Part shown: piece by piece, positions 13,175-18,651 of the stretch
Layout of the letters: each line of letters starts with the position of its first letter
Numbering within the stretch: the stretch's first letter is position 1
Source of the DNA: Litorivivens lipolytica
Lineage (GTDB): Bacteria > Pseudomonadota > Gammaproteobacteria > Pseudomonadales > Spongiibacteraceae
Direction: 5' to 3'
Length of the DNA stretch: 64,000 nucleotides
Assembly: GCF_014191715.1 (NCBI RefSeq)
Contig: NZ_JACHWY010000002.1
Span: 310,001-374,000, forward strand
Position numbers and translations under genes: made by a program
The notes under the pieces: generated by a model
Told to the model about the DNA's origin: nothing
Databases searched by the model: none
The model's input: only the letters and a program-made list of their open reading frames with translations

Positions 13175-13206
13175 AAAGGCCTCCTTCATGGAGGCCTTTT
13201 TTATTT
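13175..13206 (+). terminator. Rho-independent terminator of the OmpA-like gene
   Basis: A perfect stem AAAGGCCTCC / GGAGGCCTTT with a five-base loop, followed by a T-run. It lies 18 bases past the stop codon. Confidence 0.93.
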
Positions 13207-13463: not shown

Positions 13464-15647
13464 ATGCTGTTTGGGCGGAAAGACCGCAAGCCTATTAAAA
13501 TTGCCGACAAGAAAGTGGTCGACTGGAAGTATGCCGTATGCGGCTACTGTTCCACGGGCTGTTCGATCGAGGTGGGCCTGAGCGCCGAGGGCAAACCCGT
13601 TACCAGTCGCGGCAAGGGTAGTGCTCCAGTTAACCAGGGAAAACTGTGCATCAAGGGGATTTTTGAGCACGAGCTGGTGACTACGGCGGGTCGCGGTACT
13701 GAGCCGCTGATGCGCGACAAGATTTATCAGCCCTACCAGCCAACCAGCTGGGATGCGGCATTGGACCGCACAGCTGACGAATTCAAGCGCATCCAAGAAA
13801 AATACGGTCGCGACAGTGTGGCGGTCGTGTCCACCGGCCAGCTGCTGACCGAAGAGTTTTATACCCTGGGCAAACTGGTGCGCGGCGTAATCGGCACCAA
13901 CAACTACGACGGTAACACCACCCTGTGCATGGCGTCGGCGGTTTCCGGTTACAAGCGTTCCTTTGGTTCCGATGGACCGCCGGGCTGCTACGAGGATTTT
14001 GAGCATACTCACTGCTTGTTGGCCTTCGGCTCCAACCTGCCGGAACAGCACCCGATTATTTACTGGCGTCTTAAAGAAGCGCTGGAAAAACGCAAATTCC
14101 CCCTGATTGTGGTCGATCCGCGCGTCACCATGATGGCCCAGTTCGCCGATATTCACCTGCCTATCACTCCCGGTACGGATCTGGTGCTGCTCAATGCCAT
14201 GGCCCATGTGATCATCAAAGAGGGTCTGCAGAAGCAGGATTATATCGACGCCCACTGCAGTGGTTATGACGAGCTGGCGGCCCTGATCGAGAAATACGAT
14301 CCGGAATCTGCCTCGCGTATCTGCGGCATCGATGCCGATACTATCCGCCACGTTGCCAGACTGTATGCGAAGGCGCCCTCGGCCATGAGTATCTGGACCA
14401 TGGGCATCAACCAGAGCACTCACGGCTCCGATGGCGTCTGCGGTATCAACAACCTCAACCTGATTACCGGCAATATCGGCATCCCCGGCGGCACTTCCCT
14501 GTCCATCACCGGTCAGTGCAACGCCATGGGTACCCGTGAGTGGTCGTCCTGTTCCGGTCTGCCGGGTTATCGCATGCTGGAAAAAGAAGAGCATCGCGAG
14601 GAAGTCGGCAAGTTCTGGGGCGTCGATCCCGAGTTCTTCCCCAAAAAGCGCGGCCTGCAGCAAACCGATATTTTTCCAGCCATCGAATCCGGCGAAATCA
14701 AGGCGCTGTGGATTGTCGCTACCAACCCGCTGACGTCGATGCCCAACCAGCCGCGGATCAAAAAGGCGATGGAGAAGCTGAAGTTTATGGTGGTGCAGGA
14801 TGGCTACGCCGATTGTGAAACCGCCAAGTACGCCCACGTTTATCTGCCCGGTGCGGTTTGGGGTGAAAAAGAAGGTGTACAGACCAATACCGAGCGCCGG
14901 GTCAATTTAGTCCGCAAATTCGTTGAGCCACCGGGTCAGGCGAAGCCGGATTACTGGGTGTTCAACGAGCTGGCCAAGCGCTTTGAGCAGGGCCGCAAGA
15001 TCAAATTTCCGGAAACGACCTCGGAAATTTTCGACGAGATGAAGCATCTCTCCAAGGGCGATGGTCGCACCCTAGATATTTCCGGCATGAGCCACGACAT
15101 GATTGAAGAGCAGCGCGGTATTCAATGGCCGATGCGAGAGGGGGAGGCTACGGGTAACCCTCGCCTCTACAGCGACGGCAAGTTCCAGACCTCGAGCGGC
15201 AAGGCCAATCTGTTGGCGATGGACTACATCGAAAACAACGAAGTGCCGGACAATCAATACCCCTTCTGGCTCAACAGCGGTCGGGTGGTTGAGCATTTCC
15301 ACACCCGTACCAAGACCGGCAAGATCGGCAACCTGAACAAATTCAGCCCGACCCCGTATATGGAAATGAACCCGGACGCCGCTCGCGCCCTGGGTGTGCA
15401 GCATATGAGCTACGTTAGGCTGGTTTCCCGCCGCGGCGATGCAGTAGTCATGGTGCAGCTGACCCAGCGCGTGCCGCGCAATATGGTGTTTATCCCGATG
15501 CACTACCACGATTGTGTAAACCGTCTGTCGCTGGGCCTGCTCGACCCTTACTCACGGCAACCGGCCTTCAAGCAGTGTGCGGTGCGTATTGAACATGTGG
15601 ATCAGAAGGAAGCGGCGCGTTTGAACGTTGAGCGCCGGGCGTTTTAA
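13464..15647 (+). CDS. NasA/NarB-type molybdopterin oxidoreductase (probable nitrate reductase catalytic subunit)
   Basis: Mo-bis-MGD enzyme of the DMSO reductase superfamily, 727 residues. The N-terminal 4Fe-4S site is Cys26-x2-Cys29-x3-Cys33 with Cys62 in LCIKG. The probable molybdenum ligand is Cys155 in NTTLCMASAVSGYKRSFGSD, followed by GPPGCYED; this block is the one seen in assimilatory NasA/NarB nitrate reductases. Further NasA-like segments are GINQSTHGSD, ITGQCNAMGTRE, ATNPLTSMPN and GAVWGEKEGVQTNTERRVN. There is no Tat signal (MLFGRKDRKPIKIADKK), so it should stay in the cytoplasm. Its only neighbour in the operon, 14 bases downstream, is a DmsB-DmsC fusion; no nitrite reductase, transporter or cofactor genes are adjacent. 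The substrate is inferred from the active-site block, so another oxyanion cannot be excluded. Confidence 0.82.
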   Translation: MLFGRKDRKPIKIADKKVVDWKYAVCGYCSTGCSIEVGLSAEGKPVTSRGKGSAPVNQGKLCIKGIFEHELVTTAGRGTEPLMRDKIYQPYQPTSWDAALDRTADEFKRIQEKYGRDSVAVVSTGQLLTEEFYTLGKLVRGVIGTNNYDGNTTLCMASAVSGYKRSFGSDGPPGCYEDFEHTHCLLAFGSNLPEQHPIIYWRLKEALEKRKFPLIVVDPRVTMMAQFADIHLPITPGTDLVLLNAMAHVIIKEGLQKQDYIDAHCSGYDELAALIEKYDPESASRICGIDADTIRHVARLYAKAPSAMSIWTMGINQSTHGSDGVCGINNLNLITGNIGIPGGTSLSITGQCNAMGTREWSSCSGLPGYRMLEKEEHREEVGKFWGVDPEFFPKKRGLQQTDIFPAIESGEIKALWIVATNPLTSMPNQPRIKKAMEKLKFMVVQDGYADCETAKYAHVYLPGAVWGEKEGVQTNTERRVNLVRKFVEPPGQAKPDYWVFNELAKRFEQGRKIKFPETTSEIFDEMKHLSKGDGRTLDISGMSHDMIEEQRGIQWPMREGEATGNPRLYSDGKFQTSSGKANLLAMDYIENNEVPDNQYPFWLNSGRVVEHFHTRTKTGKIGNLNKFSPTPYMEMNPDAARALGVQHMSYVRLVSRRGDAVVMVQLTQRVPRNMVFIPMHYHDCVNRLSLGLLDPYSRQPAFKQCAVRIEHVDQKEAARLNVERRAF

Positions 15648-15661
15648 GAGGTTTATTTACG

Positions 15662-17524
15662 ATGTGGCAAGTACGAGACGACGAACCCCAATACGCTTTT
15701 CTGAAAGAGCCGAAAGCGCCCGAGGTGAATTTTTATGAAGCGCCGATCGATCTGATTGCGCGCTCTGGCGGTGTGGCTGAGCCCGGTCGGGAAATGTTTA
15801 TCAATGACGAGCCCGGTGTGGGTACCAACCCCAATCGCAACAAGCAGCACGCCTTTCACTTTACGGCGGATAACTGCATTGGTTGTCATGCCTGTGAGGC
15901 CGCCTGCTCGGAAAAGAACGACAATCCGGCCCATATCAGCTTTCGCAGCGTGGGTTATGTTGAAGGCGGCACCTATCCGGATTTCCGTCGGATGAATATT
16001 TCAATGGCCTGTAACCATTGCGATAACCCGGTGTGTTTGAAGGGCTGCCCAACGCGCGCCTACACCAAACACGCAGAGTATGGCGCGGTGCTGCAGGACC
16101 CGGAAACCTGTTTCGGTTGCGGCTACTGCACCTGGGTTTGCCCCTACAACGCTCCTCAGCTTGATCCGATCAAGGGTCAGGTGTCGAAGTGCAATATGTG
16201 TGTCGATCGCCTCGAGGTGAATCTCAAACCCGCTTGTGTGTCGGCGTGTTTGGGTAATGCGCTAAATTTTGGGGTGGTGGAAGATCTGCCTGAGAATCGC
16301 GAACAGGGCAAAGTCTCCATTCCCGGTTTCCCTGATCCGGAAATCACTCATCCCAATATCCGCTTCCAGCAGGTTAAGCATATGCCGGACGAGGTCACTC
16401 GTCCCGATGGCATGCCGGTGAAATACCACAAGCATGACGATGGGCAGTACCGCCCGGTGGTGGATCAGAAGAAAGGTGTCGACCGTCACTGGAATCTCAA
16501 ACGCTTGAGTTCGCGTGAAAACCCGCTGGTGATCTTTACCCTCTCCAGTCAGGCAGCACTTGGCCTGTTCTTTAGTCTGTTTCTGGGTGCCCAGCTCGGC
16601 GTGGAACCGCTGCAGGCGCTGCGCAGTTCCGTGATGTACGTGCCGATGGTCGCGTTGGCCGTGGCCTTTGCGGGTTTGGGCATGCTGATGTCAGCGACGC
16701 ATTTGGGTAAGCCCCTGCGTTTCTACCGCGGGTTTAACAATCTGCGTCACTCACCGGTCTGTCGCGAAGGGCTTGGCATCCTCTTGTTTATGGTCTTCGG
16801 GGGGCTGCATCTGTTAGCTGCGCTGCCAGACAACGCCGTATTCCAATCGCTTTTGGGCGATTGGGGCAGTTATCCGATGCTGGCCTCGGTATTTGGATGG
16901 TTGGCCATTCCAGCCGGTGCGACCGGTCTTTACTACATGATTAAGTGCTACCGCATCCCGGCGCGTCCGTTCTGGAACCACTGGCAGACGGGCAGCAGCT
17001 TTGTCGGCACCAGTCTGGTGTTCGGTGGCCTTCTGTTGGGGCTGATCGGTGGATTCACGCTGGTATGGCTGGAACAAAGCACAGCGTCGCTGGTTGCTGT
17101 CTGCGTGATGCTGGTGTTGGCGGGCACGGCGCTGGAAGCCGTGGGTCTGTGGCGCCATGCAGTAGATATGAATCTGGCCAATAACGAGGGCAGTGCATCG
17201 CACTATGTGCAGAGCACCGTTTTTGGCAAGAGCTATACGCTGCGCAATGTGCTGCTGGGGGTGAATCTGGTTCTGGCACTTGCGCTTCTTGGTGGGGTTT
17301 TCAGTGGGGGGCTTAGCAGCTGGGCGATATTGCCGCTAGCGCTGGCGCTTTCCTTGGCGGCGCTGACCGTCGCGCTGATTGGTCGGGCCCTGTTCTACGT
17401 GCTGGTTATTCCGACCACCATGCCTGGTGCCTTCTTCTGGAAGAACAAGGATTTCGAAGAGCACGCCAGAGAGATCGGTCTGGCGCATATGCCGCAGGTG
17501 GGCGTGGTCTACCACAGCCACTGA
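15662..17524 (+). CDS. DmsB-DmsC fusion: four-cluster ferredoxin subunit joined to a quinol-oxidising membrane anchor
   Basis: 620 residues in two parts. Residues 65-200 carry 16 cysteines in DmsB order: 72/75/78/82, 117/120/125/129, 150/153/156/160 and 177/180/192/196, enough for four 4Fe-4S clusters. Residues about 290-600 contain roughly eight hydrophobic helices matching the DmsC/NrfD-like anchor that takes electrons from menaquinol or ubiquinol (GMLMSATHLGKPLRFYR is typical). In E. coli DMSO reductase these are separate proteins; here they are one chain. It is co-transcribed with the NasA-type catalytic gene and presumably passes quinol electrons to it. With no Tat signal on either protein, the complex probably faces the cytoplasm. 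Confidence 0.85.
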   Translation: MWQVRDDEPQYAFLKEPKAPEVNFYEAPIDLIARSGGVAEPGREMFINDEPGVGTNPNRNKQHAFHFTADNCIGCHACEAACSEKNDNPAHISFRSVGYVEGGTYPDFRRMNISMACNHCDNPVCLKGCPTRAYTKHAEYGAVLQDPETCFGCGYCTWVCPYNAPQLDPIKGQVSKCNMCVDRLEVNLKPACVSACLGNALNFGVVEDLPENREQGKVSIPGFPDPEITHPNIRFQQVKHMPDEVTRPDGMPVKYHKHDDGQYRPVVDQKKGVDRHWNLKRLSSRENPLVIFTLSSQAALGLFFSLFLGAQLGVEPLQALRSSVMYVPMVALAVAFAGLGMLMSATHLGKPLRFYRGFNNLRHSPVCREGLGILLFMVFGGLHLLAALPDNAVFQSLLGDWGSYPMLASVFGWLAIPAGATGLYYMIKCYRIPARPFWNHWQTGSSFVGTSLVFGGLLLGLIGGFTLVWLEQSTASLVAVCVMLVLAGTALEAVGLWRHAVDMNLANNEGSASHYVQSTVFGKSYTLRNVLLGVNLVLALALLGGVFSGGLSSWAILPLALALSLAALTVALIGRALFYVLVIPTTMPGAFFWKNKDFEEHAREIGLAHMPQVGVVYHSH

Positions 17525-17882: not shown

Positions 17883-17912
17883 TAAAAAACCCGGGCAAGC
17901 CCGGGTCTTTAT
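17883..17912 (-). terminator. Rho-independent terminator of the PuuD-like gene
   Basis: On the minus strand, GACCCGGGC TTG CCCGGGT is followed by six T. It lies 14 bases past the stop of the 17926-18567 gene, and the stem is nearly all G:C. Confidence 0.92.
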
Positions 17913-17925
17913 TAGGCTCTGACGC

Positions 17926-18567
17926 TTATACGAACTGAAGCAGCGCCAGGATCACAACACTCAGACCGATGCTGCAATGGATAACACCTTTTACCGTGGT
18001 CATCGGGCCGGTTTTGCCGAAGATGGCGTTAAGTTCGAGGGCAGCGATCAGCGCCAGCGCGATCCACAGACCTAGCGGCAGGCTGTTCATGCCATAGCTG
18101 GCAGCGCCGGTGCCGTGGAATGAACCCATCATGCCGATCAGCATGGGGCCAGAGAACAGGGTGTTGGTGCGTGAAGCCAGGCCCGCTTTGGGAGCGGCAG
18201 CCGCTGCGTCACCGGGAGTGATGCCGCAAACGATTTTCTGGTTCGGCCAGATGATCAGCCATACGTTCAGGAACATCAGCGTACCCAGAACAGCACCCAC
18301 GATGATGTAGGAATCCCAGCCGTGAGCCTGACGGATCACTTCCAGCAGGACCACACCGGTCAGGAAGGTGAACATGGCGCCCCAGCGGAACCACCACAGC
18401 GCGCGCGGAGCGAGCTTTTTAACCGCGTCGGCCTTGGCGCCGGCTTCGGCTTCTTTGAAGTATTCGGTTTGAACAAAGTTGAAGTAGTAGAGCAGGCCGA
18501 TCCAGGTAATGCCGAACAGCACGTGCAGCCAGCGGAACAGTAGATCGATAGTAATAAAGTTTTCCAT
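17926..18567 (-). CDS. PuuD-family (urate hydroxylase-like) membrane protein, short form
   Basis: Integral membrane protein of 213 residues with about five or six helices. It carries the family's typical segments: WLHVLFGITWIGLLYYFNF, KLAPRALWWFRWGA, NVWLIIWPNQK and the final FGKTGPMTTVKGVIHCSIG. In characterised members the membrane part is followed by a cytochrome-c domain and the protein oxidises urate; here there is no CxxCH motif and no haem domain. No purine catabolism genes are nearby, so urate hydroxylase activity is not safe to assume. The start at 18567 is preferred over the ATG five codons earlier because it begins at the conserved N-terminus. Monocistronic, with a clear terminator. 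Confidence 0.75.
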   Translation of the reverse strand: MENFITIDLLFRWLHVLFGITWIGLLYYFNFVQTEYFKEAEAGAKADAVKKLAPRALWWFRWGAMFTFLTGVVLLEVIRQAHGWDSYIIVGAVLGTLMFLNVWLIIWPNQKIVCGITPGDAAAAAPKAGLASRTNTLFSGPMLIGMMGSFHGTGAASYGMNSLPLGLWIALALIAALELNAIFGKTGPMTTVKGVIHCSIGLSVVILALLQFV

Positions 18568-18651
18568 AGCGGTCCCTATCAATTGTGGCAGATTGAACTT
18601 TTATTACTCCTCGCCCTCTGAGGGTCTGCGAGGAAAGCTTGTTGTCGCGGC

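Follow-up and report, generated by a model that had tools for sequence, protein, structure and literature searches.

A NasA-like molybdoenzyme paired with a DmsB-DmsC fusion protein as a probable quinol-linked nitrate reductase for assimilation

From where does an enzyme resembling the assimilatory nitrate reductase NasA draw its electrons when its gene is followed by one for a fused iron-sulfur and membrane-anchor protein? This question is raised by two adjacent genes in a 64,000-nucleotide stretch of the genome of Litorivivens lipolytica (contig NZ_JACHWY010000002.1, positions 310,001 to 374,000; hereafter the window, numbered from its first nucleotide). They encode a catalytic subunit, referred to here as CAT, and a DmsB-DmsC fusion protein, referred to as FUS. 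We infer from their domains, ligands and genomic linkage that the two chains form a complex with a cytoplasmic active site, a quinol donor, nitrate as the substrate and a role in assimilation. Together, CAT and FUS would probably be a membrane-bound quinol:nitrate oxidoreductase of two chains that faces the cytoplasm and supplies nitrite for assimilation.

Both genes start with ATG, are separated by 14 bp and are preceded by Shine-Dalgarno-like sequences (GGGAGA for CAT and AAGAGG for FUS), and the unit is flanked by terminator-like hairpins that are consensus matches only (Table 1). The original prediction, of a NasA/NarB-like molybdoenzyme without a twin-arginine translocation (Tat) signal followed by a single iron-sulfur and anchor chain, was confirmed for both open reading frames, with unchanged coordinates, and for their domains. 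FUS lies directly downstream of CAT in 100 of 101 CAT loci, the sole exception being at a contig end. Chance neighbours or a misjoined fusion were ruled out by the conservation of the pair in about 100 loci.

Among 369 gammaproteobacterial genomes, CAT was found in 62, full-length FUS in 60 and both in 59. In a phylum-wide draw, the identical six of 398 genomes hold CAT and FUS, and the identity falls from 63% for CAT to 42% at the next NasA-like matches. The pair also occurs in Betaproteobacteria. No FUS was found in the plasmid collection. The carriers are many marine and freshwater bacteria, with records named Teredinibacter, Shewanella, Colwellia, Methylophaga, Rhodoferax, Janthinobacterium and Ectothiorhodospiraceae, several of these records being metagenome bins that may be misnamed. 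In the close named relatives Spongiibacter and Zhongshania, CAT is 86-95% identical to that of the window, and the gene order around the pair is likewise kept.

CAT consists of the Molybdop_Fe4S4, Molybdopterin and Molydop_binding domains of the DMSO-reductase family and nothing further. Neither a Tat signal nor a signal peptide was seen in its N-terminus, MLFGRKDRKPIKIADKKVVDWKYAVCGYC, N-termini being read by inspection rather than with a signal-peptide program. Met156 directly follows the molybdenum ligand Cys155, as in NasA and NapA, whereas Sec/Cys-His or Cys-Gln stands there in the formate dehydrogenases of the alignment. In addition, the Thr of the CAT motif ITGQ, also as in NasA and NapA, stands at the conserved Arg of formate dehydrogenases (VRGQ, MRGH), so that Met156 and this Thr occupy the positions of His141 and Arg333 of FdhH. 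The motifs WTMGINQS and NAMG-TR of CAT agree with NasA in the alignment. The long proteobacterial NasAs bear a C-terminal BFD [2Fe-2S] domain (Fer2_BFD), and a long NasA from Hymenobacter additionally has a fused flavoprotein; CAT has neither.

A tree was built with 16 NasA, 13 NapA and 23 formate dehydrogenase sequences, with no Bacillus NasC or true NarB in it; sequences from Gloeothece (H50) and Georgenia (H40), first used as NarB/NasA references, were dropped, as they lack the NasA motifs. CAT, NasA, NapA and the formate dehydrogenases each formed a separate clade with 100% or 99% support (100% for CAT), and CAT did not fall inside the NasA clade, a result that an earlier tree also gave. 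Since CAT combines NasA/NapA-type residues with a separate clade, we regard it as a distinct NasA-like lineage.

The phylogeny therefore did not place CAT with formate dehydrogenases or sulfur-compound reductases; the identity with SoeA, the catalytic subunit of a sulfite dehydrogenase, is 26% over only 240 residues. The highest curated NCBIfam match of CAT is the formate dehydrogenase alpha model TIGR01591 (596.8 bits), and genuine NasAs show the same pattern, with this model on top and under its cut-off. A formate dehydrogenase identity was ruled out because that score is below the cut-off of 666.25, the active-site His and Arg are absent, and CAT is separate from the 23 formate dehydrogenases. 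NapA was ruled out by the position of CAT outside the NapA clade and by the missing Tat signal, and a truncated NasA by the separate clade.

FUS contains a DmsB-like iron-sulfur domain (TIGR02951, E 3e-46) followed by a DmsC domain (PF04976, E 8e-16). The 16 cluster cysteines foreseen in the original prediction (72, 75, 78, 82; 117, 120, 125, 129; 150, 153, 156, 160; and 177, 180, 192, 196) are all invariant in 48 homologues, and the DmsC-like anchor on the same chain is borne out by the PF04976 match. AlphaFold2 gave eight confident helices between residues 287 and 586, and the Foldseek matches of this anchor have the NrfD/PsrC fold, among them menaquinone-bound PsrC (2vpw_C; prob 1.0, TMt 0.61).

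To count charges in the loops, the helices of the model were laid onto the alignment of the 48 FUS sequences, with Escherichia coli DmsC and SoeC as controls. The loops on the N-terminal side carried a mean of 17.2 Lys and Arg residues and never fewer than 14, against a mean of 0.8 and at most 4 in the loops on the other side. Both controls behaved as known, with 3 versus 5 for DmsC, whose N-terminal side is periplasmic, and 9 versus 1 for SoeC. These results support a cytoplasmic location of the FUS iron-sulfur domain, as in SoeC and the reverse of E. coli DmsC, and hence the cytoplasm-facing arrangement that had been predicted, on the positive-inside rule with two controls.

His347 and Glu369 of FUS are invariant and align with His65 and Glu87 of DmsC, two residues reported by the Weiner laboratory to be important for menaquinol in E. 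coli. The FUS anchor shows no sign of a b heme. For SoeC, a review expects the reverse orientation of that of other NrfD-like subunits and a quinone site close to the cytoplasmic side of the membrane (PMC8076601).

The genomic setting of the pair points to nitrate assimilation. In many families, a frequent order has genes for a PP2C/Ser-Thr kinase and for narK on one strand and nirB, nirD, CAT and FUS, in this order, on the other. NirB (TIGR02374) was found in 62 of 63 CAT genomes, in 59 of them over the cut-off, and the one genome without it is 55% complete; among other Gammaproteobacteria it was found in 10 of 59 (Fisher P about 1e-22, with kinship ignored and the draw spread over families). 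In 55 of the 63 CAT genomes, nirB lies within 10 kb of CAT. The predicted assimilatory nitrate reductase is supported by this conserved linkage to nirBD and narK, which suggests nitrate as the substrate and assimilation as the role.

Other genes accompany the pair in part of these loci. In about 21 loci (e.g. L084:12381-12785, L096:12402-12821 and L127:12408-12797), the gene behind FUS encodes a conserved small protein of about 135 residues with the motif L.KTCLIGL.YF...LKQ...WWEW.PR; it has no Pfam or NCBIfam match, was not found beside the pair of the window, and is a possible CAT-FUS assembly factor. A DsrC/TusE-family gene (cluster c18) is present in 10-11 loci, mostly right behind CAT-FUS (e.g. 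L037, L039, L051 and L131), an unexplained tie of nitrate reduction to a sulfur carrier protein. A RavA/ViaA-like pair (MoxR AAA ATPase and VWA protein) lies downstream of FUS in six loci, including L037, L041, L042, L048 and L110.

In L. lipolytica itself, the absence of an adjacent nitrite reductase or transporter, as originally described, holds for the window but not for the genome, in which nirD, nirB, narK and the kinase gene lie at C2:513039-519636 (L147 8040-14637), about 185 kb from CAT-FUS, with nirB, nirD and narK themselves at 513.0-517.8 kb. No nasA stands beside this cluster. Its separate position and the low identity, 39%, of its NirB to a NirB adjoining CAT-FUS elsewhere would fit a split of the cluster or a replacement of nirBD. 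Five proteins of the genome, including CAT, match PF00384. The other four (L148, L149, L150 and L151) are FdhF-like proteins of about 706-763 residues that score 190-240 bits with the formate dehydrogenase model and lower with the nitrate reductase models, far under every curated NCBIfam cut-off. NapA is absent from the genome, and a search for a NasA-NasB pair elsewhere in it found none. CAT is the only recognisable nitrate reductase, and the only recognisable source of nitrite for NirBD, in this genome.

Table 1. Features of the CAT-FUS unit, in window coordinates.
Feature	Position	Strand	Evidence
Terminator-like hairpin, 5' border of the unit, behind the upstream ompA-type gene	13175..13199	+	Consensus match only
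CAT, 727-residue cytoplasmic molybdoenzyme, NasA-like catalytic subunit	13464..15647	+	Open reading frame, domain, residue and tree evidence
N-terminal [4Fe-4S] motif of CAT (C26, C29, C33, C62)	13539..13649	+	
Molybdenum ligand Cys155, then Met156, of CAT (NasA/NapA type)	13926..13931	+	Alignment
FUS, 620-residue DmsB-DmsC fusion	15662..17524	+	Open reading frame and domain matches
Ferredoxin domain of FUS for four clusters, residues 66-210, with all 16 Cys invariant	15857..16291	+	Domain match and alignment
Membrane domain of FUS, residues 287-586, DmsC/NrfD-like with eight helices	16520..17419	+	Domain match and model
Putative quinol-site residue His347 of FUS, invariant, at the position of His65 in E. 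coli DmsC	16700..16702	+	Alignment
Putative quinol-site residue Glu369 of FUS, invariant, at the position of Glu87 in E. coli DmsC	16766..16768	+	Alignment
Terminator-like hairpin, 3' border of the unit, ahead of the convergent gene at 17926	17889..17906	+	Consensus match only

The convergent neighbour (17926-18582, minus strand) encodes 218 residues matching the N-terminal membrane domain of urate oxidase (PuuD-like, PF06181) and has no obvious link to CAT-FUS.

In the mechanism that we favour, quinol would give up its electrons within the first helix bundle of the FUS anchor, close to the cytoplasmic side of the membrane. These electrons would travel by way of four [4Fe-4S] clusters in the DmsB-like domain and the [4Fe-4S] cluster of CAT, five clusters in all, to the molybdenum centre. 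NarK would import nitrate, the molybdenum centre would reduce it to nitrite in the cytoplasm, and NirBD would convert nitrite to ammonium with NADH. FUS would thereby stand in for the C-terminal [2Fe-2S] domain and the NADH- or ferredoxin-linked donor of ordinary NasA. Ubiquinone has a potential near +100 mV. Compared with this value, the potential of nitrate/nitrite is about +433 mV (PMC10100899), and therefore the quinol-to-nitrate step would be downhill. The reaction would be electroneutral if protons were released and consumed on the same side. Electrons that come from NADH would by then have gone through complex I, and for sulfur or methyl oxidisers a direct use of quinol would be possible.

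Several observations weigh against this mechanism. CAT is under the curated cut-off of every NCBIfam nitrate reductase model (512.6 versus 1100 for NasC and 483.8 versus 1000 for the halo NasA), although a nirB-linked NasA of Klebsiella likewise stays under both (358 and 355). The sister group of CAT has 36% support, so that the order among CAT, NasA, NapA and the formate dehydrogenases is unresolved; published phylogenies have the same uncertainty over the branching of NasA, NapA and AioA (PMC10100899). The AlphaFold confidence is very low for the FUS iron-sulfur domain, so that the path from clusters to quinone is a putative one. The pair is not beside nirBD in the family of the window. A long NasA is also present in 19 of the 62 CAT genomes and shares a cluster with CAT in 8, and CAT-FUS might therefore have another or an additional role there. 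No biochemical or genetic test of any CAT-FUS member was found in the open-access literature.

The eight genomes in which a long NasA adjoins CAT-FUS are G009, G071, G080, G090, G184, G205, G237 and G304, and the clusters include L127, L071 (nirB-nirD-CAT-FUS-NasB-like flavoprotein-NasA) and L048 (nirB-nirD-NasA-CAT-FUS). Mutual exclusion of CAT and long NasA, suggested by a small draw, was not borne out in the larger one, a long NasA being present in 31% of the genomes with CAT and in about 30% of those without. In genomes with both, the two wirings might serve one pathway, or CAT-FUS might have a separate role. Such a role could be that of a redox valve or a low-level respiratory enzyme, with nitrate as the cytoplasmic sink for surplus quinol and with assimilation fed by a long NasA or other sources. 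The build of CAT-FUS is that of a respiratory complex, and next to an NADH-type NasA it would be redundant if both only assimilated. We nevertheless consider a purely non-assimilatory function unlikely: in 43 of the 62 CAT genomes there is no long NasA, so that CAT is the sole NasA-type candidate, yet nirBD and often narK lie next to CAT, and L. lipolytica likewise has no other recognisable nitrate reductase.

That CAT-FUS acts on something other than nitrate is very unlikely. It could reduce another oxyanion or an N-oxide, or act as an oxidase or dehydrogenase feeding the quinone pool, with a merely regulatory linkage to nirBD; DmsB/DmsC and Soe partners normally serve enzymes of sulfur compounds, and the clade of CAT is outside NasA. 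However, the NasA/NapA-type active site without the formate dehydrogenase His and Arg, the very strong linkage to nitrite reductase and the presence of narK in the same clusters all argue for nitrate. The least probable alternative makes FUS a membrane anchor with no quinol function, electrons entering the DmsB-like clusters from a soluble ferredoxin or NADH dehydrogenase. Known assimilatory nitrate reductases do use ferredoxin, flavodoxin or NADH, and the anchor lacks a recognisable b heme, but the residues aligned with the quinol site of DmsC are invariant, and NrfD-like subunits have no redox cofactors and yet interact with quinones (PMC8076601).

The favoured quinol:nitrate oxidoreductase shares features with several known systems and is identical to none. 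Like CAT, the proteobacterial NasA of the Klebsiella/Pseudomonas type (about 870-950 residues) is a cytoplasmic molybdenum bis-pyranopterin guanine dinucleotide (Mo-bisPGD) enzyme with an N-terminal [4Fe-4S] cluster, a Cys-Met site and linkage to nirBD and nitrate transport, and the identity is 34-42% over the catalytic domains; unlike it, CAT is shorter, lacks the BFD domain and a flavoprotein donor of its own, and belongs to a separate clade. E. coli DmsABC has a four-cluster DmsB and an eight-helix DmsC (PF04976) with the two putative quinol-site positions kept, whereas DmsA is Tat-exported with a Ser ligand, DmsB and DmsC are separate chains, and DmsC is oppositely oriented. The sulfite dehydrogenase SoeABC is, like CAT-FUS, cytoplasm-facing, with a four-cluster subunit and a DmsC-family anchor of the same inverted charges, but SoeA is PhsA-like and about 970 residues long, SoeB and SoeC are separate, and electrons flow from sulfite to quinone. 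Quinol-linked nitrate reduction, as proposed here, is known from NarGHI, which is also cytoplasmic, and from NapABC/GH, whose NapA, unlike CAT, is Tat-exported and periplasmic. NarG has an Asp ligand and a b-heme anchor. Cyanobacterial NarB and Bacillus NasC, at about 710-730 residues, are near CAT in length (PMC7331816), but they are ferredoxin- or NADH-linked, and no DmsB-DmsC partner has been reported for them.

No description of a Nas-DmsBC enzyme or of a quinol-linked Nas was found in open-access text, and in that literature the parts are known while the combination of a NasA-like catalytic subunit with a DmsB-DmsC fusion is not previously described. A 2021 review of NrfD-like subunits, DmsC and SoeC included, names no nitrate reductase (PMC8076601). 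Alteromonas macleodii has nasA without nasC, and ferredoxin was proposed as the donor (PMC12021255); its nasA mutant fails to grow on nitrate (PMC12021255, PMC4899447), which we do not count as evidence, as a FUS neighbour there is unconfirmed. The nitrate reductase of Methylophaga JAM1 (PMC5710167) is likewise not counted.

According to a family phylogeny of 2020, no member of the clade of NasA, NapA, AioA and soluble formate dehydrogenases is associated with canonical four-cluster or anchor subunits (PMC7331816). CAT-FUS is a case contrary to this statement, and a common one, occurring in 62 of 369 gammaproteobacterial genomes and in Betaproteobacteria. With it, a defined electron source would exist for the NasA-type enzymes of many marine and sulfur-oxidising bacteria, for which no donor is recognisable. 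It would also alter the energy cost of nitrate use, with quinol in place of NADH, the step being electroneutral if the quinol protons go to the cytoplasm. We hold it to be rather unlikely, though conceivable, that nitrate assimilation is here an energy-conserving part of the respiratory chain, either because the inverted anchor translocates ions or because the electrons first pass an energy-conserving dehydrogenase; if so, sulfur- or methyl-oxidising carriers would assimilate nitrate without the NADH cost of reverse electron flow at that step. The operons that hold both an NADH-type NasA and CAT-FUS would offer a natural side-by-side comparison of the two wirings.

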